Source of the DNA: Candidatus Hydrogenedentota bacterium
Lineage (GTDB): Bacteria > Hydrogenedentota > Hydrogenedentia > Hydrogenedentales > SLHB01
Reading direction: 5' to 3'
Length of the DNA stretch: 41,524 nucleotides
NCBI GenBank assembly: GCA_903925285.1
Contig: CAIYET010000980.1
Span: forward strand, 1 to 41,524
Shown: piece after piece, positions 9,700-39,175 of the stretch
Layout of the letters: every line of letters starts with the position of its first letter
Numbering within the stretch: the first letter of the stretch is position 1
The notes under the pieces: generated by a model
What the model saw: the letters and a program-made list of their open reading frames with translations, nothing else
The model's database searches: none
What the model was told of the DNA's origin: nothing
Made by a program: the position numbers and the translations under genes

Positions 9700-10578
9700 G
9701 TGGAAGAGTCCAAGATTCAAGGAACGCGCAGATCCCATCGAGGGGGGATTCGCTGGCGTGCGAAAGGTCTGCTGGGCCTTCGGCGAAATATCCTTGTCGA
9801 GATCCGCTGGCGACTGGGCGACGAGATCATGGCGTTGCCCATTTACGACGGCCTCCGTAGCGGCTATCCTGACTGTCGGATCGCGGTCTTGTGCAACTAT
9901 CCCGAACTGCTCGAAGGGAACCCCTCTGTCGATGTAGTCAACGTTCCCATGTCGCCCGACCGTTTCATCCTGTTGCGTAGCGGGCCGCGCACCGTAAGGC
10001 GTATCGCGCATTACGCCGAACTGGCGGGCATTTCGACGCCTGTGGAACGCCCGCGACTGCATTTCGCCGACTGGTCCGCGCCGTCCGTCGCGCGGTACGG
10101 CGGAGGTTTCGTCGCGGTGGCGCCGGGCGCATCGTGGGCGATCAAGCGTTGGCCGGTGGAACGCTGGCGCGCGCTGTGCGAGGCTCTCGATGCGCATGGA
10201 TTGCCCGTGGTCGAACTGGGTCATGGCGACGAAGCGATCGGCGTGCAGCATTCGCTGATGGGACAAACGACCGTCCGCGAAGCGGCGTGCGTTCTTCACG
10301 CGGCACGGCTGCTCGTTTGCTGCGATTCGGGACTGATGCACCTCGCGCGCGCTGTCGGCACGCCCGCCGTGGCGTTGTTTGGCCCCACCGTTCCCTCTAT
10401 ACTCATCTCAAACGATCCCGGCCTGACGGCCGTCGTGAGCGAAGAACCATGCCAAGGATGTTGGAATACCGATCAACCGAATGTTTCGCCGGGCGTGTGC
10501 GCGCGTGGCCGCGCATCGTGCATGGAACGTATCTCGGTGGACGACGTGCTGTCGCGCGTCCTACCGGTGCTGGCGTAA
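9700..10578 (+). CDS. GT9 (heptosyltransferase-like) glycosyltransferase
   Basis: The 292-residue protein starts with GTG and has a basic N-terminus. The GT-B fold features of the ADP-heptose:LPS transferase family are visible: RWRLGDEIMALPIYDGL near the start (acceptor side), VAPGASWAIKRWPVERW in the middle (nucleotide-sugar side), and CCDSGLMHLARAVGTPAVALFGPT (the conserved D-x-G-x-x-H element). The Cys cluster after it (CQGCW, CARGRASC) recurs in the second GT9 at 20144-21259. It is slightly short for the family. It probably adds a sugar to a lipid-linked or core glycan at the cytoplasmic membrane face. Confidence 0.85.
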   Translation: MEESKIQGTRRSHRGGIRWRAKGLLGLRRNILVEIRWRLGDEIMALPIYDGLRSGYPDCRIAVLCNYPELLEGNPSVDVVNVPMSPDRFILLRSGPRTVRRIAHYAELAGISTPVERPRLHFADWSAPSVARYGGGFVAVAPGASWAIKRWPVERWRALCEALDAHGLPVVELGHGDEAIGVQHSLMGQTTVREAACVLHAARLLVCCDSGLMHLARAVGTPAVALFGPTVPSILISNDPGLTAVVSEEPCQGCWNTDQPNVSPGVCARGRASCMERISVDDVLSRVLPVLA

Positions 10579-10589
10579 TTCGAGAAAAG

Positions 10590-10768
10590 GAATTCAGAAG
10601 TCAGGAGTCAGAATTCAGAATGTTCACAGCGCTTGATCAATGTCGCCCACGGGGTGAGCCCCTCACCCTCCCATGCGATGCCGCAACGTCGGCGCGGAAG
10701 CCCGCTCCGCACGGACCTTGCGCGTAGCGCGTTGGCATTCTGACTTCTGACTTCTGAATTCTGAATTC
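10590..10768. repeat. Heptamer repeat array, locus F
   Basis: The left arm (10590-10621) reads in 7-mers of the TCTGAAT/CTTCTGA/CTCCTGA family and the right arm (10737-10768) in the opposite orientation. They match with small unit-order differences rather than exactly. The 115-bp core contains a perfect hairpin, GGGTGAG-CCC-CTCACCC (10652-10668). The inverse of that stem, CTCACCC-ACA-GGGTGAG, begins the dispersed repeat at 30101. No gene is seen between 10579 and 10791. Confidence 0.85.
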
Positions 10769-10791
10769 CTATTACCTTCGAGGATGGCTGC

Positions 10792-11862
10792 GTGAAAGTT
10801 CTCTTTCTGACGCTCTACCCGGACGTGGCGGCGAGTCCACGTTATCGCGTGACGCAGTTCGTACCGTACCTCGAATCGCGCGGCGTTGCGTGCACCGTGG
10901 CATGTCCGATGACGGCGACGGAATTGGACGCGCTGACGGGGCCGAATCGGCGCTACCGCCCGTTTTGGTATCACGCGCGCGAAACGGTCCACCGCGTACG
11001 GCAGATCCTCGATGCGCGGCGATACGACGTGGTTTTCGTGCAAAAGGCGATCATGAGCGCATATGTTCGCGGCTTGCCGGAATTGCTGCGCGCGCGCGCA
11101 CGTCGGCTCGTCTACGACATCGACGACGCGGTCCACCTCGCGCCGCCGCACCCGTTGCCCGCGATCTGCCGACCCATCGAGGACCGGGGCCAGATCGGGA
11201 GCCTGTTCGCTATGGCCGACCTCGTGCTGGCGGGCAATGCGTGGCTCGCCGAAGCCGCGCGCGAGGCCGGGGCGCACGTCGAACATTTTCCGACCGTCGT
11301 CGATACGGAGCGCTTCGTTCCCGGAGGCCGCGCGCAAGGCTTCCGCGGCGGCTTGCCGCCCAACGCATTTCGCATCGGCTGGGTAGGCAATCCGAGCACG
11401 ACGATTTGCCTCGCGCCCGCCGCCGAGGCCTTGGCGAAGGTACAAGGCTCGGTCCAGTTGATTGGCGCGGACGCGTCGCGCGTGCCGTTCGATGGCGCGG
11501 AAGTCGTGCCGTGGGCGCTCGACTGCGAAGTCGAAACGTTACAGGCGTTATCGATTGGGATTATGCCGCAACCCGCCGAACCGTGGATGCGGGGCAAGTG
11601 CGCGCTCAAGGCGTTGCAATACATGGCCTGCGGCATTCCCTGTGTGGCGACGCCATTCGGAGCGGTCCTCGAATTCATGAACCATGACGAAAACGGCCTG
11701 TTCGCGGACAATACTCGCGAATGGCTGGACGCGTTCGCGCGGCTTCGCGATCCTACGACTTGGCGTCGGATCGCCGAGGCGGGCCGCGCCACGGTCGAGC
11801 AGCGCTACGCGTTGCACACCGCCGCGCCGCGCCTGCACGACTTGTTGCGGGGGCTGCCATGA
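10792..11862 (+). CDS. Glycosyltransferase, GT4/GT1 (GT-B fold)
   Basis: The 356-residue protein starts with GTG after GAGGA. The N-terminal half (MKVLFLTLYP..., YRVTQFVPYLESRG) is the acceptor-binding Rossmann-like domain. The C-terminal half has GWVGNPST (start of the donor domain), then KCALKALQYMACGIPCVATPFGAVLEF, which includes the Lys and the E/G-rich donor-binding region of the GT1 group. There is no signal peptide or membrane segment. The stop overlaps the next ATG (ATGA), so it is coupled to a second GT4. Donor and acceptor cannot be told. Confidence 0.86.
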   Translation: MKVLFLTLYPDVAASPRYRVTQFVPYLESRGVACTVACPMTATELDALTGPNRRYRPFWYHARETVHRVRQILDARRYDVVFVQKAIMSAYVRGLPELLRARARRLVYDIDDAVHLAPPHPLPAICRPIEDRGQIGSLFAMADLVLAGNAWLAEAAREAGAHVEHFPTVVDTERFVPGGRAQGFRGGLPPNAFRIGWVGNPSTTICLAPAAEALAKVQGSVQLIGADASRVPFDGAEVVPWALDCEVETLQALSIGIMPQPAEPWMRGKCALKALQYMACGIPCVATPFGAVLEFMNHDENGLFADNTREWLDAFARLRDPTTWRRIAEAGRATVEQRYALHTAAPRLHDLLRGLP

Positions 11863-12980
11863 TCCGCGTCTGCTACGTCATCCCTACATTGAACGTCGGC
11901 GGTACGGAGCGTCAACTCTTGTACCTCTTGAAAGGACTTGCGCTAGATTACGAGTTGACGGTCATCTGCACGAACTACGAGGGCACGCTGGCCGGTGAGG
12001 CACGGCACGAAGGCGTCCGCGTAATCGATCTCGGCGTGCGTAGCGGCTGGGACCCGTCGGCGTGGTTAAAACTCAGGCGCATTTTCGCGGCACACCGCCC
12101 CGATGTCGTCCACACGTTTCTATTCGGATTCGACTTGTACGCGAACCTCGCCGCGCGGCAAACCGGGGTGCCGGTCGTCATTTCGAGCCGCCGCCAACTC
12201 GCCACGTGGAAAAAGAAGCGGCATTTGTTCATGCAGCGCTGGGCCAATCAACTCGTCAATTGCGTGGTCGCGAACAGCCGCGCCGTCGCCGAATTCGCTA
12301 TCGAACAGGAGCAGGCTGCCCCGGGCCTGTTCCGCGTCATTCCCAACGGCATCGATGCGAACCAGTTCGTCAGCCGCGCCGACCCGCACATGTTGCACCT
12401 GCGCTACAACATCCCATTCCATCGCCACGTCATAGGCATCGTCGCCAATTTCAGTCCTGTCAAGGACCACGACTTGTTCATACGCACCGCCGAGATATTG
12501 TTGCGGCGTCGCGCGGATGTGCATTTCCTCATGGCCGGGATCGGCCCGCTCATAAAATCCATCGAACGCGATCTTCACACGCGCAAGCTCTCGGATTGTT
12601 TTACGCGCGTATCGAGTATCGCCGAGATCGCGGACCTGTATGCGCTGATGGACGTGTCCGTCCTTTGCTCGAAAGTCGAAGGCTTTCCAAATGCCGTTAT
12701 CGAGTCCATGGCCGCGACGCGCCCCGTCGTCGCAGCGTCCGTCGGCGGCATCCCGGAACTGATCGTCGAGGGCGAGACGGGCCGCCTTGTCGCCTCGCGC
12801 GATCCGAATGCCTTCGCAGACGCCATCGAATGGGCGCTGGATGAACCAAACGAGAGCCGCGCCATGGCCGAGCGCGGCGCGCGGTTCGTACGAACCCAAC
12901 TCGACCTCGAACGCATGATCGAAAGTTACCGCACGCTGTATGCCGAATGCCTGGCACAAACCAGTTGGCAGGAGCGCTGA
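11859..12980 (+). CDS. Glycosyltransferase, GT4 family
   Basis: The 373-residue GT-B enzyme starts at the ATG overlapping the previous stop; longer in-frame starts from 11721 lie inside the upstream gene and were not used. MIRVCYVIPTLNVGGTERQ is the classical N-terminal motif with the Gly-Gly loop. The donor domain has VIPNGIDANQF, NFSPVKDH, and EGFPNAVIESMAATRPVVAASVGGIPELI, containing the E-x7-E donor-binding element. It is predicted cytosolic or membrane-peripheral and retaining. The neighbouring asparagine synthetase starts 2 bp downstream, so the three genes form a tight unit. Confidence 0.9.
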   Translation: MIRVCYVIPTLNVGGTERQLLYLLKGLALDYELTVICTNYEGTLAGEARHEGVRVIDLGVRSGWDPSAWLKLRRIFAAHRPDVVHTFLFGFDLYANLAARQTGVPVVISSRRQLATWKKKRHLFMQRWANQLVNCVVANSRAVAEFAIEQEQAAPGLFRVIPNGIDANQFVSRADPHMLHLRYNIPFHRHVIGIVANFSPVKDHDLFIRTAEILLRRRADVHFLMAGIGPLIKSIERDLHTRKLSDCFTRVSSIAEIADLYALMDVSVLCSKVEGFPNAVIESMAATRPVVAASVGGIPELIVEGETGRLVASRDPNAFADAIEWALDEPNESRAMAERGARFVRTQLDLERMIESYRTLYAECLAQTSWQER

Positions 12981-12982
12981 CT

Positions 12983-14836
12983 ATGTGCGGCATCTGCGGA
13001 CTCGTTGGCGCGCGACGCGACGAACACGTCGATCCCGATGCCGTCGCGCGTATGAACGAGGCTATGCGCCACCGGGGTCCCGACGACGCGGGCGTCTGGC
13101 ACAGCGGCCACATCTCGCTCGCCATGCGACGCCTGAGCATCCTCGACGTTCCCGGCGGACATCAACCCATGACCAACGAAGACGGATCGGTCGTCGTCGT
13201 GTTCAACGGCGAGATCTACAACTTCGAGGAACTCCGCAACGACCTTATCGAACACGGACACGTCTTCCGCACGCAAGGCGACACCGAAGTCATCGTCCAC
13301 GCCTACGAGCAATACGGCGACGCTGCGCTCGAGCGGTTCAACGGCATGTTCGCATTCGCGTTGTACGACCTTACACGCAACCGCCTCCTCGTCGCACGCG
13401 ACCGGCTCGGCATCAAGCCGCTATTCTACGGCATGCGCGGCGACACGCTCGCCTTCGCGTCGGAACTCGATGCACTGATGCAGTCGCGCCTCTTCTCATG
13501 CGAGATGAACGCCGGTGCGCTCGATGCGTATTTCACGTTTCTCTACATCCCCGCGCCAGACACGATCTACTCGGACGTACACAAGCTGCGGCCCGGCGAA
13601 AAGCTCGTCTTCGAGAAAGGCCGCATGTCGCTCGAACAATATTGGAGGCCCACCTTCGCGCCCGATCCGAAATGGACGCTCGATAGCGCCGCCGAGGCCT
13701 ATCGCGCGCTCTTGCAAGACGCCGTGCGCCTGCAACGGATCAGCGACGTCCCACTCGGCGCATTCCTCAGCGGCGGCATCGACTCGTCGTCCGTCGTCGC
13801 GATGCTCGCAGGCATGAGCACGCAACCGATCAAGACGTTCACGGTCGCTTTCGACGACCAAACGGCCAACGAAGCGCCTTACGCACGCCTCGCCGCGAAA
13901 CACTTCGGAACCGACCACACCGAAGAAATCCTTCGTCCCAACATGCTCGAGATCGCGCCCCAACTGATCGCGCATTTCGGCGAACCCTTCGCAGATTCCT
14001 CCGCCGTGCCGACATGGCTCGTCTCGCGGCTTGCGCGGCAACAAGTGACCGTCGCGCTTTCCGGCGACGGCGGCGACGAACTCTTTGCCGGATACACCTG
14101 GGCGCACAACACACGCCGCGTCCAAGCGTACCGCCGCGTCCCGCGACCACTCCGCGCGATCGTCGATACGGCACTCCGGTTCGCGCCCGAATCGCCGTTC
14201 ATGGGCAAACTTCGCCGTTTCAGTCAAGACGCGAGGCTCGAAGGCCGCGCGGCATTCCGCCGACGCGAGACATGCCTCGACGCCGACGCGCGCGCCACGC
14301 TCTACCGGACGAGTCTCGCGTACGCCGTCGAGAACGCCGCCGTGGACCGCTTCGCAGAACACGCCGACGCCGGTCCGTCCAACCTCGACGAGTGGATGCT
14401 GTACCAGGACACCGTCATGTATCTGCCCGACGACATCCTCGTCAAAGTCGACCGAATGAGCATGGCCCACTCGCTCGAAGCCCGCGTGCCGCTGCTCGAT
14501 CATCGCATCGTCGAATTCGCAGGCACGCTGCCCTTCCACCTGAAATACGGCAACGGCATCTCGAAACGCGTAGTCAAACACGCATTCCGAAACATTCTGC
14601 CGCCCGAACTCCTGCGCCAACGCAAACAAGGTTTTGCAATACCGATCCAACGCTGGTTCCGCGAAGACCTCCGAAACGTTTTCATCGAACTCGTCCTTGG
14701 AGACGACGCACGCTGCAAATCCTACCTCGACCATGACGCCATCCGCGCGCTATTCAAAACCCATACCATGGACCTCGAAAACCACGGCCACGCCCTCTGG
14801 GCCATCCTCATGTTCGAGCATTGGCTGCGCCGCTGA
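12983..14836 (+). CDS. asnB: Asparagine synthetase B, glutamine-hydrolysing (copy 1)
   Basis: The 617-residue two-domain enzyme begins MCGICGLVGA, so Cys2 becomes the N-terminal nucleophile of the class-II glutaminase after Met removal. Conserved glutaminase residues follow: MRHRGPDDAG, LSILD, FNGEIYNF, TQGDTEV. The synthetase domain has the ATP-pyrophosphatase loop SGGIDSS at 263-269 and LSGDGGDELFAGY. The start is set by Cys2 and by GGAG upstream. Copies in glycosyltransferase clusters often amidate a sugar or uronic acid instead of aspartate, which fits this setting but is inference. A second copy lies at 18165-20147. Confidence 0.93.
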   Translation: MCGICGLVGARRDEHVDPDAVARMNEAMRHRGPDDAGVWHSGHISLAMRRLSILDVPGGHQPMTNEDGSVVVVFNGEIYNFEELRNDLIEHGHVFRTQGDTEVIVHAYEQYGDAALERFNGMFAFALYDLTRNRLLVARDRLGIKPLFYGMRGDTLAFASELDALMQSRLFSCEMNAGALDAYFTFLYIPAPDTIYSDVHKLRPGEKLVFEKGRMSLEQYWRPTFAPDPKWTLDSAAEAYRALLQDAVRLQRISDVPLGAFLSGGIDSSSVVAMLAGMSTQPIKTFTVAFDDQTANEAPYARLAAKHFGTDHTEEILRPNMLEIAPQLIAHFGEPFADSSAVPTWLVSRLARQQVTVALSGDGGDELFAGYTWAHNTRRVQAYRRVPRPLRAIVDTALRFAPESPFMGKLRRFSQDARLEGRAAFRRRETCLDADARATLYRTSLAYAVENAAVDRFAEHADAGPSNLDEWMLYQDTVMYLPDDILVKVDRMSMAHSLEARVPLLDHRIVEFAGTLPFHLKYGNGISKRVVKHAFRNILPPELLRQRKQGFAIPIQRWFREDLRNVFIELVLGDDARCKSYLDHDAIRALFKTHTMDLENHGHALWAILMFEHWLRR

Positions 14837-28022: not shown

Positions 28023-28934
28023 CTATTCAAGCTTCTTTCTTGCAGGCCGGGCGTCATACAGTTCGGGGGCCTCTCTCACGACGCACGCGCGCTCGTCCGC
28101 CTTCCGCTCGAAATACAACTTCGATTCACTGAAAAGATCGTTGCCGTCCGCCTTCAAATAGCGTGCCGCCATCCGGCAGTACTCGGGATCGATTTCGACG
28201 CCGATACTGTTCCTGTTCGTTCTCATGGCCGCGACCATCGTCGTTCCAGAACCACAGAAAGGATCGAGAACCGTATCTTCGACAAACGAGAACATGCGGA
28301 CCAAACGCGTTGCCAGTTCGACAGGAAAGGGTGCGGGATGATTCTTTGTGGACGCCCCGGGAATGTTCCAGATCTGCTGGAACCAAATGTTGAACTCGAC
28401 CTTGGATATCCTGCTCGAGTCCCTTTGGGCTTCACTCGGCTTCCGATATCCGCCGGGCTTGCGCTGCATCAGAATGAACTCCATGTCATTCTTGATGATC
28501 GCATTGGGCTCATAAGGTTTCCCAAGGAACTTCGATCCGTTGGTCACCTCGTAGGCTGCATTGGCAATCTTGTGCCACACAATGGGGTTCAGATTGTCGA
28601 ATCCGATCTTGCGGCACATCACACAAATATCCGCGTGAAGTGGGAACACCAAATGACGCCCAAATTCCCGCCGCGCCACGCAGACATCTCCCACGACGCA
28701 GACCAAACGGCCGCCGGGAACAAGCATGCGGAAAACATGCCGCCACACCTTATCAAGTTCCGCCAGAAATGTCTCGTAATCCTGTATATGTCCCATCTGG
28801 TCAGGATGATCGTTGTAGCGCTTCAGATTCCAGTAGGGCGGCGACGTGACCACGAGGTGCACGGATTCGTCGCCGAGGAAAGACAGGTCTCGAGCATCGG
28901 CGTTAATGAGTCGATGGGATGTCGATTCCGTCAT
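28023..28934 (-). CDS. DNA methyltransferase, beta class (predicted N4-cytosine)
   Basis: The 303-residue enzyme has the catalytic motif TSPPYW at residues 30-35 first and the S-adenosylmethionine motif LDPFCGSGTT at 223-232 late, with HPAPFPVELATRLV just before it. That order defines the beta class. A TSPPY motif is typical of N4-cytosine enzymes, while N6-adenine enzymes mostly have DPPY; this is a tendency, not proof. It starts immediately after the stop codon of the restriction gene (0 bp gap) and would protect the host from it. Confidence 0.9.
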   Translation of the reverse strand: MTESTSHRLINADARDLSFLGDESVHLVVTSPPYWNLKRYNDHPDQMGHIQDYETFLAELDKVWRHVFRMLVPGGRLVCVVGDVCVARREFGRHLVFPLHADICVMCRKIGFDNLNPIVWHKIANAAYEVTNGSKFLGKPYEPNAIIKNDMEFILMQRKPGGYRKPSEAQRDSSRISKVEFNIWFQQIWNIPGASTKNHPAPFPVELATRLVRMFSFVEDTVLDPFCGSGTTMVAAMRTNRNSIGVEIDPEYCRMAARYLKADGNDLFSESKLYFERKADERACVVREAPELYDARPARKKLE

Positions 28935-29648
28935 CTACGCAAATGCTCCAATGTGTGCGGTCAACGCTCTCGTAAACCGCTCGACCGAAAGGTCTGCAGA
29001 GGGCGTCTCATAGACGCCTTGAATGCCATCGGCGGCCCTCGATGTAATGAATGCGGCGGCCGAGTAATGGCGCTCGAGGATCAGTTTGCGACAGAATATC
29101 TCATATCGCTTCACGTAAGAGGCGCCAAGAAAATCGGGGAAAACCTTGAAGTGCGGTTCCTGCACTCTGATCGGCTGGTTTGAGCCCGCGCAGTCCTCGA
29201 TCATGAAGAAATATCCCACGAAGGGTTGTGGGCTGTCGAGGTAGGCACGCTCGCGAAAGGCCGTCCAGAGATCCAGTGCACTTCCCACCGCCTCCTCGGT
29301 GCGATTGTTGAAATTGTTCGCGAAAGAAGGCCCGGCGTGAGATTTCGCTTCAATGGCCGCTAGCAGCCTCTTCTCCTTGACAACCAATAAGTCCCATTTT
29401 TTCGTGGGCCTGAAGAAGCCTGGCAATTCGACGGCCTTCTTGCGAAATACGCAGGACTCGGGGATTCCGGCACGCACGATAATATCCGCAAAGAAGCTGA
29501 TGAATCCGTCCATCTGCGCACCGCCCGTTACGGCGCTACGCAAACCCCGATCGGACTTGCCGCCCGATTCCTGTTTCACGCGCTGTGCGGCTCGTGTAGC
29601 CCAATAGTGGGCAACGGCCTTTCTTGTTTTCTCCGCCGGGTTATCCAT
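28935..29648 (-). CDS. Type II restriction endonuclease, XhoI/PaeR7I-like
   Basis: The 237-residue protein resembles the XhoI/PaeR7I family (CTCGAG cutters) in several conserved stretches: TGGAQMDGF, LPGFFRPTKKWDLLVV, GPSFANNFNNRTEEAVGSALDLWTAF, and the late PHFKVFPDFLGASYVKRYE. The PD-(D/E)xK catalytic set is Asp86, Glu100 and Lys102 (WDLLVV...AAIEAK). I recognise the family from memory, so recognition of CTCGAG is an inference. The enzyme precedes its methyltransferase in one operon, the opposite order from many systems, so a separate promoter for the methyltransferase would be expected. Upstream is tRNA-Leu. Confidence 0.8.
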   Translation of the reverse strand: MDNPAEKTRKAVAHYWATRAAQRVKQESGGKSDRGLRSAVTGGAQMDGFISFFADIIVRAGIPESCVFRKKAVELPGFFRPTKKWDLLVVKEKRLLAAIEAKSHAGPSFANNFNNRTEEAVGSALDLWTAFRERAYLDSPQPFVGYFFMIEDCAGSNQPIRVQEPHFKVFPDFLGASYVKRYEIFCRKLILERHYSAAAFITSRAADGIQGVYETPSADLSVERFTRALTAHIGAFA

Positions 29649-31594: not shown

Positions 31595-32896
31595 ATGATT
31601 ACGGAACGTGAGTGCGCCAAGGTTGCCATTCCGGCAGGTAGTCGCTCGCTTAAAAAGACCAAGAATCGCGTTTTGACACGGCGCGGCGTGTTGTGGCTGG
31701 GTCAGACCTGCAACCAGCGGTGCTATTTTTGTTATTTCGCGCACCGGATCACGAATCTGGATCATCCCGAACACGCCTTCATGGATCTCGATAAAGCCAA
31801 GCGCATCTGCAAAACGTTGCGCGAGTGTTATGGAAACACGGCCATCGACATTCAGGGCGGCGAACCCACGATACACCCCGGCATCTTTGAACTGGTTCGG
31901 TACTGCCGCGAGATCGGCCTGTTTCCCACGCTCATCACGAACGGCCTGGTATTGGGACGCCCGGGCATCATGGAAAAGTACCGCGACGCAGGCATCCGCG
32001 ATTTCCTCGTGAGCCTGCACGGAATCGGCACAGTCCACGACCAGGTTGTAGGACACGAAGGGGCCTACGGCAAGATCGTGGCCGCCATCGAGCGCATGCG
32101 CGAAGTGGGCGTACCGTTCCGCCTCAACTGCACCATGTCCAAGCCGGTCGTCCCCATTCTCCCCGATATCGCGCAAAAAGCCATCGAGTATGGCGCATAC
32201 GCAGTTAACTATATCGCATTCAACCCGTTTGGCGATCAAATATCCGGCGTCCGCACGCACGACAATGTCCCGAAATACACCGATATCAAGGCGCAGCTTG
32301 CCGTCGCAATGGACCTGCTCGAAGAAGCCGGTATCGAGGTAAACGTCCGGTACCTACCCCTGTGCATGAGCGAAGCGCGCCACAGGAAAAACTTTTATAA
32401 CTTCCAACAGTTGTCTTACGACACGCACGAGTGGGATTACCAAAGCTGGTTCTGGACCATGCGCCAGCCGCAGATGATGAAGGAAGGGACGTTGATGCCC
32501 ACGTTCCTGCTCGGTCCCAAGGCGCGCCAACTGTACCGCCTAAATCCCATCGCCGTCCGGGATCGATGCCTCGCGCATCCGCTGTACTGGGGCCTCGCGT
32601 TTGCGGGACAGCGGTGGGTTGCCCGCCTCGTGCAGACGTTGCGCGGCAAAGATGTGCTTTGGCGCAACGAAGCCTGCGCCCGTGCAGCGGAGGATTGCCA
32701 GTACCGCTATCACGAAGCGTGCGGGCGTTGCGCGCTTTGCAGCATCTGCGACGGATTTCACGGCGACTACAGCGACCTGTTTGGAACCGATGAAGCACAG
32801 CCCGTCACGGACATGCCGCCCACGGACGATCCCAAGGCCTACATACAGCACCAAGAGAAGACCGTCGAACCCGATGATGAGACCTGGGCTCTGTAA
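31595..32896 (+). CDS. Radical SAM enzyme with C-terminal Cys-rich cluster
   Basis: The 433-residue protein has the radical-SAM motif Cys39-x3-Cys43-x2-Cys46 (CNQRCYFC), binding the [4Fe-4S] cluster that cleaves S-adenosylmethionine. DIQGGEPTIHP is the SAM-contacting GGEP. The barrel continues through LITNGLVL and FLVSLHGIGTVHDQV. A C-terminal cluster, DCQYRYHEACGRCALCSICDGF, has enough Cys for an auxiliary Fe-S cluster, as in SPASM or twitch domains, but the spacing is not a clean match. The next gene's N-terminal half is similar but has lost the three Cys. Its stop is 55 bp before the proposed TTG start of that gene. The substrate is unknown. Confidence 0.87.
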   Translation: MITERECAKVAIPAGSRSLKKTKNRVLTRRGVLWLGQTCNQRCYFCYFAHRITNLDHPEHAFMDLDKAKRICKTLRECYGNTAIDIQGGEPTIHPGIFELVRYCREIGLFPTLITNGLVLGRPGIMEKYRDAGIRDFLVSLHGIGTVHDQVVGHEGAYGKIVAAIERMREVGVPFRLNCTMSKPVVPILPDIAQKAIEYGAYAVNYIAFNPFGDQISGVRTHDNVPKYTDIKAQLAVAMDLLEEAGIEVNVRYLPLCMSEARHRKNFYNFQQLSYDTHEWDYQSWFWTMRQPQMMKEGTLMPTFLLGPKARQLYRLNPIAVRDRCLAHPLYWGLAFAGQRWVARLVQTLRGKDVLWRNEACARAAEDCQYRYHEACGRCALCSICDGFHGDYSDLFGTDEAQPVTDMPPTDDPKAYIQHQEKTVEPDDETWAL

Positions 32897-32951
32897 CAGG
32901 ATTCTCTTCGAGGGCGATACGGATCGGACTGTCTGCACGAGGAGTCTCTGT

Positions 32952-35318
32952 TTGCAGGATTCAGCACTAGATGTATTGAAACGGCGCATCCCGCCAGTTC
33001 GAGGTCTGATTGTTACTGACAACGCCAAGGGAAAACCCTTCGCGCCAATCGATCTCAAACGATGGATCCGGCTGAGCCGCACGGCTTATGCCACGCCTAA
33101 GATCGATGTGTATGCCGTCGGTTTCAACGTCGGCCTCATGCTCGATCTGCTCGATTGTGCACGAACGGTCGATACGCGGCTGTCCATCAAGACCGGATGC
33201 ACGGTCCCGCCGGAAGATCTGGATGCGCTGAAGGAGGCGGGGTTGCTGGATGTCTGCCTTGCGCCTTCCTCGACTGACGCAAGACACTTCGACGCGTGGC
33301 TGAGTGCATGCAAAGCGGCCGGAGTTCCGGTGCGTCTCGAATGGCATGCCCCGTTTGACGTAGACCTGGATATCGACACGCTTGCGGCGCGTGCCGTGGA
33401 ATGCGGAGTGGTGGCTGCGAATATCTGTATAGGTTCGCCATTCTCACACCGCGCCGCTTGCACCGATGGTGCGCATGGGCGGCAAACCATCGAGCAGATG
33501 AACGACCTTGCGTCCGCGTTGGCCGCCGGAACCATCGACGTCGGCATTGTGGGCCTCCCTTTCTGCATGGTGCGCGAAGCGTTGCGTCCGCACTGCCTGA
33601 ACAGCACGCAGGTCTTTCAGGACCACCAGCAGTACCGCAAGGATGCGTACGACCTCGCCCTGCTCCTATACGGACGCCATCCCAGTATCTCCTCGAAAAT
33701 CCTTGCCATTCTCATTGCACAGTACACGCTGCACCGTGCGCCCATCGACGCCAAACTGTTACCGTGGCTCGTCAATCGCCCATGGTTTCATGCGCGCGCC
33801 ATTGCCTGGAACAAATTGACGCGGCATCTCCGTTTCCCGTTCGGTTCCCCAAAGGCCGCCGCAACGGATTATGAAACGCGCGAGAAAGAATTGAAGGCGC
33901 TTCAGGAGAAGGCGCTCAAGGCGTTAGGCCCCGCCTGCGAGTCGTGCCGTTTGCGGCGGATTTGCGACCATGCCGGCCCTGCCTTGCAACGCGTTTTGCC
34001 GGACGTGCAGGCGGTGAAGCAGCCGGGCGAGCTTGTGTATTCGCCTTTCTATTTTTCAAGCGGACGGAAGCGTTATTACGACACCATCGATGTGGATCGT
34101 TGCGCGTTCGGCGACGAGCAGGTGGACATGGCGCGCAAGGCCAACGAACTCACGGCGAACCGGCCTCAGGACAGACGCATCACCCCGTACGAGTACCGCG
34201 CGGAGACCACCCTATTCGCACCGTACGAAGGCGCGCTCAACTGGCTCGCGGTCACAAATGCGGAACAGCTCAGTTCGCCGCTTGCGACGCTCGAGCCGCC
34301 ATGTACGGTCTCCGTCACATTCGGCGGCGGCATGGCCGAGCACATCGGGTTTAGTTTCGGTCGTCGCATCAAGCTTGTGTGCCCGATGGAAGCCTGCCGC
34401 CACACGCTCACGCTGCACATCGAGGCGGACGGGCGCTATGTCTTCCTGCGCGACGGGATTCCGATCCGGCCTTCGGATTTCGACGGTGGAGTCTATGCGC
34501 CTCGGCGCCTGGGATCGAAACTCGAACTGCGTCTGTCAATCTGGAATATCGACACTTCCATCCTAAGCCAGTACGTCGACATCTGGGAAGAGAAAACCGA
34601 CCCCTTTCTCGCCGCCGCAAAGCCGAAGTACTCGGTAATCGTCGTATGCACGCGGTATGCACGGCGGCTCCAGGCGGCCCTCCAGTGTCTTGCCCATCAG
34701 CAAGACTTCGACATGGGAAAACTCGAAGTGATTGTGTGCTACGTCCCGGGGTTGGACGCCACGGAAGACCTTGTCGCAAGCATGCAGATGACCTATCCCG
34801 ACCTGCGCATACTGCACTCGCCATTTCCAGAACAGTGCGGCAACGCCAAAGGATTCATCATTAACGAATCGCGCCGCATGGCGTCGGGGGAATGGATTGT
34901 GCTCCTTGATTCGGACACCCTCGTGCCGCCGCGCATGTTCGCTGAAGTTGAAGCGGTCGAGAGCAAGACCAATTTCGTTGCCCCAGACGGACGTAAGATG
35001 CTCACGCCGGAAACCACCGCCCGGATCCTGCTCGGCGAGATCGCGCCATGGCGTCAATGGCAGGAGCTGATTGCCGGGCCGGGCGAGTACCGCCCGCGCG
35101 AGGCCCATGGCGTGCCCATCGGGTTCTTCCAGTGCGTTCGCGCGCAGTGTATGGATGTGGTCCAGTACCAAGAAATGGAGCATTTCGAAGGGGCCGACAT
35201 GCAGTTCGGCCTCCAGATATGGGAGAAATTCGGAGCCCCGGTCCGCCTCCTCGGCTATCCGGTGCTTCACCTCGACCACGGCGGAAGCCAGTGGTACGGC
35301 ACCCAGAAACACCGTTGA
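32952..35318 (+). CDS. Degenerate radical-SAM domain fused to GT2 glycosyltransferase
   Basis: The 788-residue protein starts at TTG (32952), chosen because GAGGAG lies 7 bp upstream; ATGs at 32874 and 32877 lie inside the previous gene. Residues 1-340 look like a radical-SAM barrel with no CxxxCxxC. IDVGIVGLPFCMVREALRP parallels IEVNVRYLPLCMSEARHRK of the upstream enzyme, and CESCRLRRIC (about 328-337) parallels its Cys-rich tail. Residues about 340-555 are of unknown, probably beta, fold. From about 556 a GT2 domain starts (PKYSVIVVCTRYARRLQAAL), with DSDT at about 653-656 and HFEGADMQFGLQIWEKFG late. It may be a pseudo-enzyme partner that hands a modified product to a glycosyltransferase. 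Confidence 0.72.
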   Translation: MQDSALDVLKRRIPPVRGLIVTDNAKGKPFAPIDLKRWIRLSRTAYATPKIDVYAVGFNVGLMLDLLDCARTVDTRLSIKTGCTVPPEDLDALKEAGLLDVCLAPSSTDARHFDAWLSACKAAGVPVRLEWHAPFDVDLDIDTLAARAVECGVVAANICIGSPFSHRAACTDGAHGRQTIEQMNDLASALAAGTIDVGIVGLPFCMVREALRPHCLNSTQVFQDHQQYRKDAYDLALLLYGRHPSISSKILAILIAQYTLHRAPIDAKLLPWLVNRPWFHARAIAWNKLTRHLRFPFGSPKAAATDYETREKELKALQEKALKALGPACESCRLRRICDHAGPALQRVLPDVQAVKQPGELVYSPFYFSSGRKRYYDTIDVDRCAFGDEQVDMARKANELTANRPQDRRITPYEYRAETTLFAPYEGALNWLAVTNAEQLSSPLATLEPPCTVSVTFGGGMAEHIGFSFGRRIKLVCPMEACRHTLTLHIEADGRYVFLRDGIPIRPSDFDGGVYAPRRLGSKLELRLSIWNIDTSILSQYVDIWEEKTDPFLAAAKPKYSVIVVCTRYARRLQAALQCLAHQQDFDMGKLEVIVCYVPGLDATEDLVASMQMTYPDLRILHSPFPEQCGNAKGFIINESRRMASGEWIVLLDSDTLVPPRMFAEVEAVESKTNFVAPDGRKMLTPETTARILLGEIAPWRQWQELIAGPGEYRPREAHGVPIGFFQCVRAQCMDVVQYQEMEHFEGADMQFGLQIWEKFGAPVRLLGYPVLHLDHGGSQWYGTQKHR

Positions 35319-35352
35319 GATCCAGTCCGGCCAGTCGAAGACGGGAGTATGC

Positions 35353-37845
35353 ATGAAGAAGACATTGAAGTACCTGTTTTATACGTTTGATTTCATTCTC
35401 GTACTACTAATCCTCTGTGGCGTCCTTCTATACTTTCTGGCCTATACGCGCGTGCCAAATCACAATCGAACCGTCGTCCACCCGTCTCTAACCGCCGAAG
35501 TCAACGTGATCCGCGACGACTGGGGCGTCCCACACATCAAAGCAGAGAACGAAACGGACGCCTACTTTGCCTTGGGCTACGTCATGGCCCAGGATCGTCT
35601 CGTGCAGATGGAAATCGTATTACGCCTCGCACGCGGCGAGTTGGCCGAGATCCTCGGTCCCATGGCCGTGCCTATCGACAAGCTCGCGCGCACCTTCCAA
35701 CTGCGCGCCAATGCCGAAAGATACGTGAACGAGCGGGCTGCGGCACGTCCCGAAATCAAAGCCGTCGCCGACGCATTCGTCGCCGGCATCAACCACCGCG
35801 TCGACAGCGAACCGGCCCCGTTCGAATTCGCAGTCCTGCACATTCCCAAACGGCATTACACCCCCATCGACTGCCTTATCGTTTCCGCCATTCTCCCCAT
35901 CACGTTCGCAGACGGACTCCGAACAGACCCGTTGTATACCCTCATCGAAGAGCGATTCCACAAGCTCGGCATCCAGCGAGACGTCCAGGAAATTTTTCCC
36001 GGCTACACGAAGGAACCGCCCATCACGGTTATGGAAACCATCGACGAAGCCGAGGCCTATCTCAAGGCGAAGCAACCTCAGCCGCGAGCCACCGCGACGA
36101 ACGACGCAACCAGCGATGGGTTGCGCGAGTTCCTGAAACCCGTGCAGATGTTGACCAAATTGTTTGGGCCAGCCCTCGGCAGCAACTCATGGGTACTCGG
36201 ACCCGCACGCACCCAATCCGGCAAACCCATCCTCGCCAACGACCCACACATCGCTTTCACCAATCCGAGCATCTGGTACGAGAGCCATCTGACCTGGGGC
36301 GACATGGACGTCTACGGCTATTTCCTGCCGCTGATCCCCTTCGCACTCATCGCCCACAACCACGACCGAGGCTGGGGGCTTACCATGTTCGAAAACGACG
36401 ACGTCGACCTCTATCGCGAAACATTCGACGCCAACAATCCAAACAAGGTCATGTACAAAGGCCAGTGGACCGACGTCAAAACCACGACGGAAACCATCAA
36501 GGTCCGCTTCGGACGCGACAAAACCATCGCCATTCGCAATACGCCCCACGGGCCGGTCATCACCGACCTCTTCCGCAAACTCCACAAATACGAAGGATCC
36601 GAAATTGCCATGTCATGGGTGTGGCAACACACACAGTACACCGACATGGAAGCACTCTACGACATGAACCACGCCAAGAACCTCGAACAATTCGGAACGG
36701 CGCTCGAGAAGATCACCTCGCCCGGACTCAACGTCTCCTACGCCGACCGCGAAGGCAACATCGCATGGTGGGCCGCCGGTATCATCCCCATCCGGCCCAA
36801 GCACGTCAATCATAAGCGGCTGCTCGAAGGCGCGTCCGGCGACGACGATATCCTTGGATACGTCCCGTTCGACGAAAACCCACACCTGATCAATCCGCCC
36901 TCCGGCTGCATCGTCACCGCCAACAACAAATCCACCGTCAAGCCCGTCGGCCCCATCCAGGACCTCGAAGGCTACTGGCAGCCAAGCGACCGCGCCGGAC
37001 GCATCGAACAACTCCTTGATGCGCGCGAAAAGTGGAACATCAACGATCTGCGCGCCGTGCAAATCGACGACGTCGCCTATAACGGCCCCAAGATGATCGA
37101 AGGAATCAAAGACGCCCTCGAACCTCTCGCCGCTCGCCTCAATCCGCTCGAACGCCAAGCGCTCGATATCCTCGGCAAATGGGATTTCGCACACGGCAAA
37201 GGTTCGACCGGCGCCGCCATCTTCCAGGTCCTCTGCGACAACCTGCTCAAACGCATCCTGACCGACGAACTCGGCGACGACAACTTCCACGTATTCTGCA
37301 TGTGTACCGATCACTGGAATTTCCTCAAATACGTCATCGGCAACCCCGCGTCGCCCTATTGGGACGACTGCACCACCTCCACCGTCGAAACCCGAACCGA
37401 CATGACCCTCAGAGCACTCGACGACACCATCGACATCCTCACCCGCAAACTCGGTCCCGACATGACCAAATGGGCCTGGGGCGCCATCCACACCATCGAA
37501 TTCAAACACCCCTTCGGATACGCCCCGCTACTGGGCCGAATCTTCAACATAGGACCATTCCCAGCCGCCGGCGGCGCACAACTCGTCAACAACATGCTCT
37601 ACGCGCGCGGCGAACCCCCCTATTCCGTAGTAGCCGGCCCATCCACCCGGCGACTAATCGACTTCGCGGACCCCGAACACTCGCTCACAGTCCTACCCAC
37701 CGGCAACGGCGGCAATTTCATGGGCACGCACTACAGCGACCAAGCCCCCCTCTTCATGACCGGCCAATACCGCGAACCCCACTTTACTCCCAAAGAAATC
37801 CGCAAACACCAGGAAAGCGCAATGAAATTCCGCCCGCGCCCGTAA
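35353..37845 (+). CDS. Penicillin-acylase family Ntn-hydrolase, membrane-anchored
   Basis: The 830-residue protein cleaves or forms amide bonds after self-processing. An N-terminal helix (about 8-30) would anchor it with its bulk in the periplasm. The start at 35353 has GGGAG upstream. The nucleophile is Ser277 in ALG-SNSWVLGPARTQSGKP, so autocleavage between Gly276 and Ser277 would give an alpha chain (with anchor) and a beta chain. NDPH follows directly, and VTANNKS near 524 carries the Asn of the oxyanion region. Substrates in the family range from beta-lactams to acyl-homoserine lactones and acyl-amino acids. It follows the radical SAM/GT2 genes by 34 bp, so a shared transcript is likely. 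Confidence 0.9.
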   Translation: MKKTLKYLFYTFDFILVLLILCGVLLYFLAYTRVPNHNRTVVHPSLTAEVNVIRDDWGVPHIKAENETDAYFALGYVMAQDRLVQMEIVLRLARGELAEILGPMAVPIDKLARTFQLRANAERYVNERAAARPEIKAVADAFVAGINHRVDSEPAPFEFAVLHIPKRHYTPIDCLIVSAILPITFADGLRTDPLYTLIEERFHKLGIQRDVQEIFPGYTKEPPITVMETIDEAEAYLKAKQPQPRATATNDATSDGLREFLKPVQMLTKLFGPALGSNSWVLGPARTQSGKPILANDPHIAFTNPSIWYESHLTWGDMDVYGYFLPLIPFALIAHNHDRGWGLTMFENDDVDLYRETFDANNPNKVMYKGQWTDVKTTTETIKVRFGRDKTIAIRNTPHGPVITDLFRKLHKYEGSEIAMSWVWQHTQYTDMEALYDMNHAKNLEQFGTALEKITSPGLNVSYADREGNIAWWAAGIIPIRPKHVNHKRLLEGASGDDDILGYVPFDENPHLINPPSGCIVTANNKSTVKPVGPIQDLEGYWQPSDRAGRIEQLLDAREKWNINDLRAVQIDDVAYNGPKMIEGIKDALEPLAARLNPLERQALDILGKWDFAHGKGSTGAAIFQVLCDNLLKRILTDELGDDNFHVFCMCTDHWNFLKYVIGNPASPYWDDCTTSTVETRTDMTLRALDDTIDILTRKLGPDMTKWAWGAIHTIEFKHPFGYAPLLGRIFNIGPFPAAGGAQLVNNMLYARGEPPYSVVAGPSTRRLIDFADPEHSLTVLPTGNGGNFMGTHYSDQAPLFMTGQYREPHFTPKEIRKHQESAMKFRPRP

Positions 37846-37900: not shown

Positions 37901-39175
37901 CTACATAGAATGCCTTTTGAGTAGTGTGGCCACAAGTGCTCCAAGCAACACATGGCCAGCCACTGCTTCTAAGCTCGTGTATATTTGAGCCGGTGTATTC
38001 TTCGGAGCAGGGTGAATGTCCCCGTATCCAAGTGTGGTCATTGTCACTACGCTAAAATAGTAAGGTTCGTACCATGAGGGATAGCGCTTATCCCAGGGCT
38101 TGTCCTTGTCTGCGGTCCACTCAATCGTTGGGACCAACCCATACAGCACTGGCTCGATGAACGTACCTTCAAGGCAGACAGGTATGGGGGTGGGCGTGTA
38201 AATAGCGGCAAACGCAAACCAAGTGACAAGCGCCCAAAAGAGAAGTCGCCCCGGGGACCAGCCGCAGTCTGCAAGGATGTACCAGAGGATTCCGAGTATC
38301 CGATGTTCTGACATAATCGACCGTCGGTGATTTTCATTGGAAACGAAACGGCGGATTCGGGTGCCGGGATCCGGGACGAGTAGTTCTGGCGACTGGAAAT
38401 CGCCCCCGAACCGAGTCCACCGTTCGCGATATCGAAGCCAAAGCATCACAAGAATACTGAGTGAGATCAAAGAACCGAGAACTGACCACGCGAAAAGCAC
38501 TACGAACAAGACCAAGATTTCCAACAGCAGGACAGGCTTCCGGAAGAGGTGACCGCACCAGGGTTCTTCGACAAACTTCACGTCTCCGAAGTCGGTTCCT
38601 CGAAACACGCAATCCCGTAAATCCGCGCCCCTCAAATCGGCGCCCTGCAAAGTCGCGTCCTTGAGATCTGCCCGCCTAAACGAGACCCCTTTGCACAATG
38701 CGTGGCGCAATTTGGTGTTTCGCATCTTGGTGCCAGTAAATGCGCAACTCCCCCTCATTTCTGCAGATTCCATCGAGGTTGCGACAAGAGAACCACCATT
38801 GAACAACACGTTTTCGAGAATGCAGAAGTCCATGCAAGAATTTGCAAAAGCGTCGCATTCTTCGAAAGTTTTGTCTATTAGCCGGATACCCCGCAAATCT
38901 CTCAGCACCTGATCGGGGCTAAGGCGATATTCGGCAGGGCAATCCTGCAATCGAGGCAACTCAGGCCATCTATCGTTCTTGAGGAGGTTTTGTGTCCAGT
39001 CGTTTTCATCCCTTATGTCGCCGAGAATCGCAGTCACACGTTCGGGAAACTCAGTCCATCGTTCCCTGAGTTGTCGAATACCCTCTTCATCCACCAGGGC
39101 ACTTCCCCTGGCAGGGGACCGGTGGCCCCAGCACCTACAACGAAGGCTCAGCAAATTACTTAGTACCCTTGTCAT
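37901..39175 (-). CDS. Pentapeptide-repeat K+ channel-like protein
   Basis: The 424-residue protein has a cytoplasmic N-terminal half ending in pentapeptide repeats (about 155-195: CKGVSFRRADLKDATLQGADLRGADLRDC), a right-handed beta-helix. Two hydrophobic spans follow (about 214-248). The channel part is TM at 308-327, pore helix and selectivity filter TLGYGD at 381-386 (VVTMTTLGYGDIHPAP), TM at 398-418. The filter is the K+ signature. It is the last gene of a minus-strand unit after a receiver protein (10 bp gap) and a sensor kinase. The ribosome site is weak. GC is lower than that of the glycan genes. Confidence 0.85.
   Translation of the reverse strand: MTRVLSNLLSLRCRCWGHRSPARGSALVDEEGIRQLRERWTEFPERVTAILGDIRDENDWTQNLLKNDRWPELPRLQDCPAEYRLSPDQVLRDLRGIRLIDKTFEECDAFANSCMDFCILENVLFNGGSLVATSMESAEMRGSCAFTGTKMRNTKLRHALCKGVSFRRADLKDATLQGADLRGADLRDCVFRGTDFGDVKFVEEPWCGHLFRKPVLLLEILVLFVVLFAWSVLGSLISLSILVMLWLRYRERWTRFGGDFQSPELLVPDPGTRIRRFVSNENHRRSIMSEHRILGILWYILADCGWSPGRLLFWALVTWFAFAAIYTPTPIPVCLEGTFIEPVLYGLVPTIEWTADKDKPWDKRYPSWYEPYYFSVVTMTTLGYGDIHPAPKNTPAQIYTSLEAVAGHVLLGALVATLLKRHSM

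Follow-up and report, generated by a model that had tools for sequence, protein, structure and literature searches.

General features of the locus

The window analysed here is the whole 41,524-nucleotide stretch from the genome of a Candidatus Hydrogenedentota bacterium (8.28 Mb in 1133 contigs). Three open reading frames, called genes 1, 2 and 3 below, follow one another on the forward strand at 31595-32896, 32952-35318 and 35353-37845, with 34 bp between genes 2 and 3, as the original prediction had described. All three have a plausible ribosome-binding site; gene 2 starts with TTG and has GGAG upstream. The features of the locus are listed below.

31595..32896, forward strand: gene 1, radical SAM protein of 433 aa with a twitch-type auxiliary Cys set (Pfam, orthologues)
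31709..31732, forward strand: gene 1, radical SAM cluster motif C39xxxC43xxC46 (invariant, 18/18)
31856..31867, forward strand: gene 1, GGEP motif, residues 88-91 (invariant in the alignment)
32363..32365, forward strand: gene 1, C257 (LPLC), first auxiliary-cluster Cys (invariant, 18/18; pairs with gene 2 C205)
32720..32749, forward strand: gene 1, C376-x2-C379-x5-C385, auxiliary-cluster Cys (invariant, 18/18; pairs with gene 2 C329/C332/C338)
32952..35318, forward strand: gene 2, pseudo-radical-SAM / beta domain / GT2 fusion of 788 aa (63/68 genomes of the phylum)
32952..33986, forward strand: gene 2, barrel of pseudo-radical-SAM type with a helical, auxiliary-Cys segment, about residues 1-345 (AF2, HHalign)
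33564..33566, forward strand: gene 2, C205 (51/57 homologues)
33936..33965, forward strand: gene 2, C329-x2-C332-x5-C338 (49-50/57 homologues each)
34047..34595, forward strand: gene 2, middle domain rich in beta structure, about residues 366-548 (AF2)
34617..35315, forward strand: gene 2, GT2 / GT-A catalytic domain, residues 556-788 (Pfam PF13641, 1.8e-9; Foldseek GlfT2, 1.8e-12)
34908..34916, forward strand: gene 2, DxD motif, D653-S-D655 (neither Asp varies in alignments of 29 and 53)
35353..37845, forward strand: gene 3, membrane-anchored Ntn hydrolase of the penicillin acylase family, judged a passenger (Pfam, contig distribution)

Gene 1 was predicted to be a radical SAM enzyme, and the Pfam Radical_SAM match (3.6e-19), the CxxxCxxC motif within CNQRCYFC and the partial TIM barrel of PF04055 bear this out. 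It is one of 79 radical SAM matches in the source genome. In common with twitch/SPASM enzymes such as BtrN, MoaA, BlsE and PqqE, it combines CxxxCxxC and GGEP with a C-terminal Cys set that fits one auxiliary cluster, the number by which the twitch domain is defined (PMC9012708; PMC10470005). It differs from them in falling far below all NCBIfam equivalog cut-offs (best 74.5 bits vs 500). The solved relatives retrieved by sequence search include BlsE and DesII, which are radical SAM enzymes of sugars and nucleoside sugars, but also PqqE and MoaA, and therefore hint only weakly that its target may be a sugar. Orthologues are found in 41 of 60 Hydrogenedentota genomes, and 40 of these 41 also carry gene 2.

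Gene 2 serves as a signature gene for Candidatus Hydrogenedentota. Of 68 genomes of the phylum, 64 are matched by its profile and 63 contain gene 2 proper; one genome (G015, 66% complete) was left out of the count as its match is through gene 1 only. It is found in every one of the 38 genomes with completeness of at least 90% and contamination of at most 5%. Outside the phylum, a pattern scan of 84,980 species, which can miss relatives, recovered it from two Myxococcales genomes only.

Domain architecture of gene 2

The only Pfam match in gene 2 is GT2 at its C-terminus, where a glycosyltransferase had been predicted; the GT2 profile, the DxD motif and a GT-A fold together identify this part as a GT2 / GT-A glycosyltransferase. 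The AF2 model of residues 356-788 (53 homologues) is a beta domain followed by the GT-A domain (pLDDT 90.2, pTM 0.88). Searched with Foldseek, this half returns GlfT2 first, at the E-value listed above for the whole C-terminal model, along with K4 chondroitin polymerase and TarS. The proposed division near residues 340 and 555 agrees with the models, and the radical-SAM-like and GT2 parts both stand, with the beta-rich domain between them as a third component that the original prediction did not have. This middle domain has no match in Pfam or in PDB sequence searches. It is not a copy of the long C-terminal extension of the Wzt proteins described below, to which it shows no relation (HHalign E 0.76). 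The GT2 domain averages 55% identity to the window protein, the beta domain 41% and the barrel 33%, and the looser constraint on the barrel would fit a binding role for it.

The N-terminal half was expected to fold as a radical-SAM-type barrel. Residues 10-365 are modelled as a confident beta/alpha barrel (AF2, 57 homologues; pLDDT 91.7, pTM 0.86), which has no Pfam match and for which Pfam and PDB sequence searches return nothing useful. With Foldseek, the radical SAM enzymes SuiB and SkfB appear only among many other TIM barrels, at TM-scores near 0.37. The assignment to the radical SAM fold thus comes from sequence, and fold comparison alone would not single it out.

The sequence kinship with gene 1 is specific. 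The stretches that first suggested it (residues 247-265 of gene 1 and 195-213 of gene 2) do align, and the resemblance goes beyond chance: BLASTP gives 2e-6 between gene 1 and the N-terminal half of gene 2, and profile-profile comparison with HHalign gives an E-value of 1.4e-21 over 329 columns. The negative controls, two other local radical SAM families and GT4, score 0.003, 0.23 and 0.14, respectively, so that membership in either of those radical SAM families is ruled out. In addition, up to an E-value of 1e-10 the gene 2 profile recovers only gene 2 and the orthologues of gene 1, despite the many other radical SAM proteins of the source genome. Based on these three lines of comparison, the N-terminal half of gene 2 descends from a gene-1-like protein.

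Homologous as it is to radical SAM proteins, this barrel is not a radical SAM enzyme by motif: CxxxCxxC is absent from its N-terminal end in all 57 homologues, and the sole match to the pattern among them falls in the C-terminal Cys element. Pseudo-SAM/SPASM proteins, as their family name indicates, are derived from radical SAM enzymes and are without the catalytic cluster. Gene 2 resembles such proteins, for example those of NCBIfam TIGR04347, in both respects; it differs in having no match to that model and in carrying beta and GT2 domains fused to it.

Conserved auxiliary cysteines

Gene 2 had been described as a Cys-less copy of gene 1. That is true of CxxxCxxC, but not of the auxiliary-cluster cysteines. 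C205, C329, C332 and C338 align with C257, C376, C379 and C385 of gene 1, and all four are present in 49 of the 57 homologues. Where they are lost, the loss tends to be joint; one such group is a clade that lies beside a different radical SAM family. The Myxococcales copy keeps all four in an N-terminal half that is otherwise hardly alignable. In both proteins the four residues are putative ligands of one auxiliary [4Fe-4S] cluster; compared with twitch/SPASM enzymes, gene 2 retains this auxiliary set only, without the radical SAM cluster motif. The metal bound in gene 2 would probably be a [4Fe-4S] cluster and possibly zinc. The retention of these cysteines across very divergent sequences after loss of the SAM cluster suggests a separate function for the auxiliary site.

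Genomic neighbourhood

Within the window, no exporter genes lie near genes 1 and 2. The source genome does encode a Wzm-Wzt pair, on a contig (C1124) away from the window, and in other genomes the 10-kb flanks of gene 2 show a recurrent order: Wzm, Wzt with a long C-terminal extension, gene 1, gene 2 and one or two GT4 genes. A 160-aa protein of unknown family also recurs in these loci. Directly upstream of gene 2 there is gene 1 in 17 of 52 testable loci, and a radical SAM gene of any of three families in 25 of 52. Wzm/Wzt lie within 5 kb in 20 of 51 loci, which thereby link both components of an ABC-dependent O-antigen system to glycosyltransferase genes, and GT4 is downstream in 24 of 49. 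More than half of the loci showed neither an exporter nor gene 1 close to gene 2, in part because many contigs are short, so that missing neighbours are weak evidence.

The arrangement varies between lineages. The Myxococcales contig reads GT4-gene 1-gene 2-Wzm-Wzt. In family f6 a different radical SAM gene occupies the position of gene 1; in family f11 the order Wzm-Wzt-GT2-gene 2 occurs without gene 1, and most f11 genomes lack gene 1 altogether, yet keep gene 2 and its cysteines. In many genomes gene 1 sits beside Wzt while gene 2 is on a separate contig. On the gene tree, adjacency to gene 1 appears in several separate parts, Myxococcales included, which is the pattern that an old pair, broken repeatedly, would leave.

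Wzt is present in all 37 good genomes, although a few matches cover the ATPase part only, and the best or near-best models for Wzt and Wzm are teichoic-acid and galactan exporters. As in known Wzm/Wzt-dependent O-antigen loci, a permease and an ATPase with a long C-terminal extension adjoin glycosyltransferases; the difference is that here radical SAM and pseudo-radical-SAM/GT2 genes lie inside the locus. A literature search found no paper that combines radical SAM enzymes with O-antigen export, or that describes pseudo-radical-SAM/glycosyltransferase fusions. More than 94% of Hydrogenedentota genomes encode the Raetz lipid A pathway (PMC11406978). With lipid A made in the phylum, the glycan is most naturally read as an O-antigen-type chain. 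LpxC is present in the source genome, which no more than allows attachment of the glycan to a lipid A core.

Gene 3 is a penicillin acylase by its Penicil_amidase profile (Pfam, 5.2e-211) and by Ser277, whose counterpart in the alignment with solved acylases is residue 1 of the beta chain, the position of the N-terminal Ser nucleophile. About 25 of the 60 genomes have an orthologue that scores above 600 bits. Genes 2 and 3 occur together in 24 genomes without sharing a contig in any of them (0/24), and gene 3 is rejected as a component of the system. Within the reach of the data, the 34-bp gap occurs in the source genome alone. Of the three-gene order that was expected in related genomes, the adjacency of genes 1 and 2 recurs and that of gene 3 does not.

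Proposed function and alternative explanations

It seems marginally probable to us that genes 1 and 2 belong to a Wzm/Wzt glycan system, in which gene 2 would be a transferase with a metal-binding pseudo-radical-SAM module and gene 1 a sugar modifier. The product would be a surface glycan exported by the ABC transporter, most likely an O-antigen-type chain of lipopolysaccharide. The GT-A domain of gene 2, whose DxD motif is intact, would work in the cytoplasm, where it would add a sugar ahead of export with the aid of the protein's beta domain. The N-terminal domain, derived from a gene-1-like enzyme, would have lost SAM binding at a CxxxCxxC cluster but been kept as a metal-binding module that either docks gene 1 or holds the acceptor or the modified sugar. 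Gene 1 is predicted to be an active twitch-type radical SAM enzyme that may oxidise, epimerise or otherwise modify a sugar of the exported glycan, and it probably contacts gene 2 where both occur. That the two form an obligate heterodimer is unlikely, given that gene 2 and its four Cys persist in several lineages without gene 1. Gene 1 is missing from 16 of the 56 genomes with gene 2, some of them incomplete, and the f11 genomes in particular indicate that gene 2 does not need it; an obligate pair is thus rejected.

These same lineages, and the many genomes in which gene 1 accompanies Wzt with gene 2 on another contig, speak for an alternative in which gene 2 polymerises or transfers glycan by itself, its pseudo-radical-SAM domain being only structural or acceptor-binding with a zinc-type knot, and gene 1 works independently in the same pathway without contact. 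We consider this rather unlikely: the N-terminal half of gene 2 is related specifically to gene 1, and direct adjacency to radical SAM genes of three families recurs. The scheme of the original prediction, a radical SAM/pseudo-radical-SAM heterodimer that modifies a peptide or lipid, with glycosylation by the GT2 domain and maturation outside the cell by the penicillin acylase, could appeal to the common strand and short gap in the source genome and to the existence of named pseudo-radical-SAM families in NCBIfam (TIGR04347, for example). The external deacylation step falls with the separation of gene 3 from gene 2 in all 24 genomes. Where Wzt, gene 1 and gene 2 are linked they abut or overlap, which leaves little space for a precursor-peptide gene between them. 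We therefore regard this scheme as very improbable. It had been presented as a new natural-product or lipid-modification system; the context points instead to an ABC-exporter glycan, not to a peptide natural product.

The identity of the glycan raises a further alternative, that gene 2 makes galactofuranan like GlfT2. GlfT2 is the best Foldseek match, and galactan exporter models are among the best for Wzt/Wzm. Gene 2 shares the GT-A domain with GlfT2 and the Kingella PamC-type GT2 galactan synthases (PMC12269835); it differs from them in its added pseudo-radical-SAM domain and in a beta domain without PDB sequence match. UDP-galactopyranose mutase (PF03275), the source of the UDP-Galf donor, is absent from all 60 Hydrogenedentota genomes, whereas the control matched in 4 of 14. 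Galactofuranan synthesis is accordingly rejected unless an unrelated enzyme makes the donor, and we find it scarcely credible.

Returning to the Wzm/Wzt glycan system, one extension of it, which we think improbable, is that the pseudo-radical-SAM [4Fe-4S] would exchange electrons with gene 1 during the change to the sugar, uniting radical modification and glycosyl transfer in one complex. If true, this would be a redox-coupled complex in which the partner subunit of a radical SAM enzyme retains only the auxiliary cluster. In any case, gene 2 offers a natural experiment on auxiliary clusters, with a site that can be tested in isolation. It also provides a near-universal signature protein for an almost uncultured phylum. 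The proposed system would tie radical SAM chemistry to exported surface glycans, and it predicts that a modified sugar is to be found in the surface glycan of Hydrogenedentota.

Variation of gene 2 and its neighbors

Homologues of gene 2, the fusion of a pseudo-radical-SAM domain, a beta domain and a GT2 domain, vary between genomes in both cysteine content and copy number. The auxiliary cysteines are gone from the copies at loci L076, L078, L083 and L092, where gene 2 is preceded by one to three radical SAM/SPASM genes of another family. At L042, L043, L045, L046 and L047 gene 2 occurs in tandem pairs, each copy being about 40-48% identical to gene 2 of the window. The records for L044, L061 and L070 are labelled Nitrospiraceae or Rhodothermaeota; judging from the contigs matched in the order-level search, they appear to be Hydrogenedentota genomes.

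Two further families recur in gene 2 loci:

L083:13525-14007 and about 20 more gene 2 loci: family of about 160 aa, directly 3' of the GT4 glycosyltransferase gene
L057:6525-8630 and orthologues: ATPase (Wzt) of the presumed surface glycan exporter, extended by about 450 aa

The former gave zero matches in Pfam and NCBIfam. The Wzt extension is without a Pfam match and is unrelated to the beta domain of gene 2. This type of Wzt ATPase is present across the phylum Hydrogenedentota.

Other features of the window

9700-14836: glycan cluster (GT9 heptosyltransferase-like, two GT4, asparagine synthase/glutamine amidotransferase)
28023-29648, minus strand: N4/N6 DNA methylase, then a 237-aa protein
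37901-39175, minus strand: pentapeptide-repeat protein that also contains an ion-channel domain

The glycan cluster is separate and distinct from genes 1 (the radical SAM gene) and 2. One response-regulator-like and one kinase-like ORF, assigned by eye, adjoin the pentapeptide-repeat gene. The 237-aa protein resembles a restriction endonuclease partner, presumably of the PaeR7I type.
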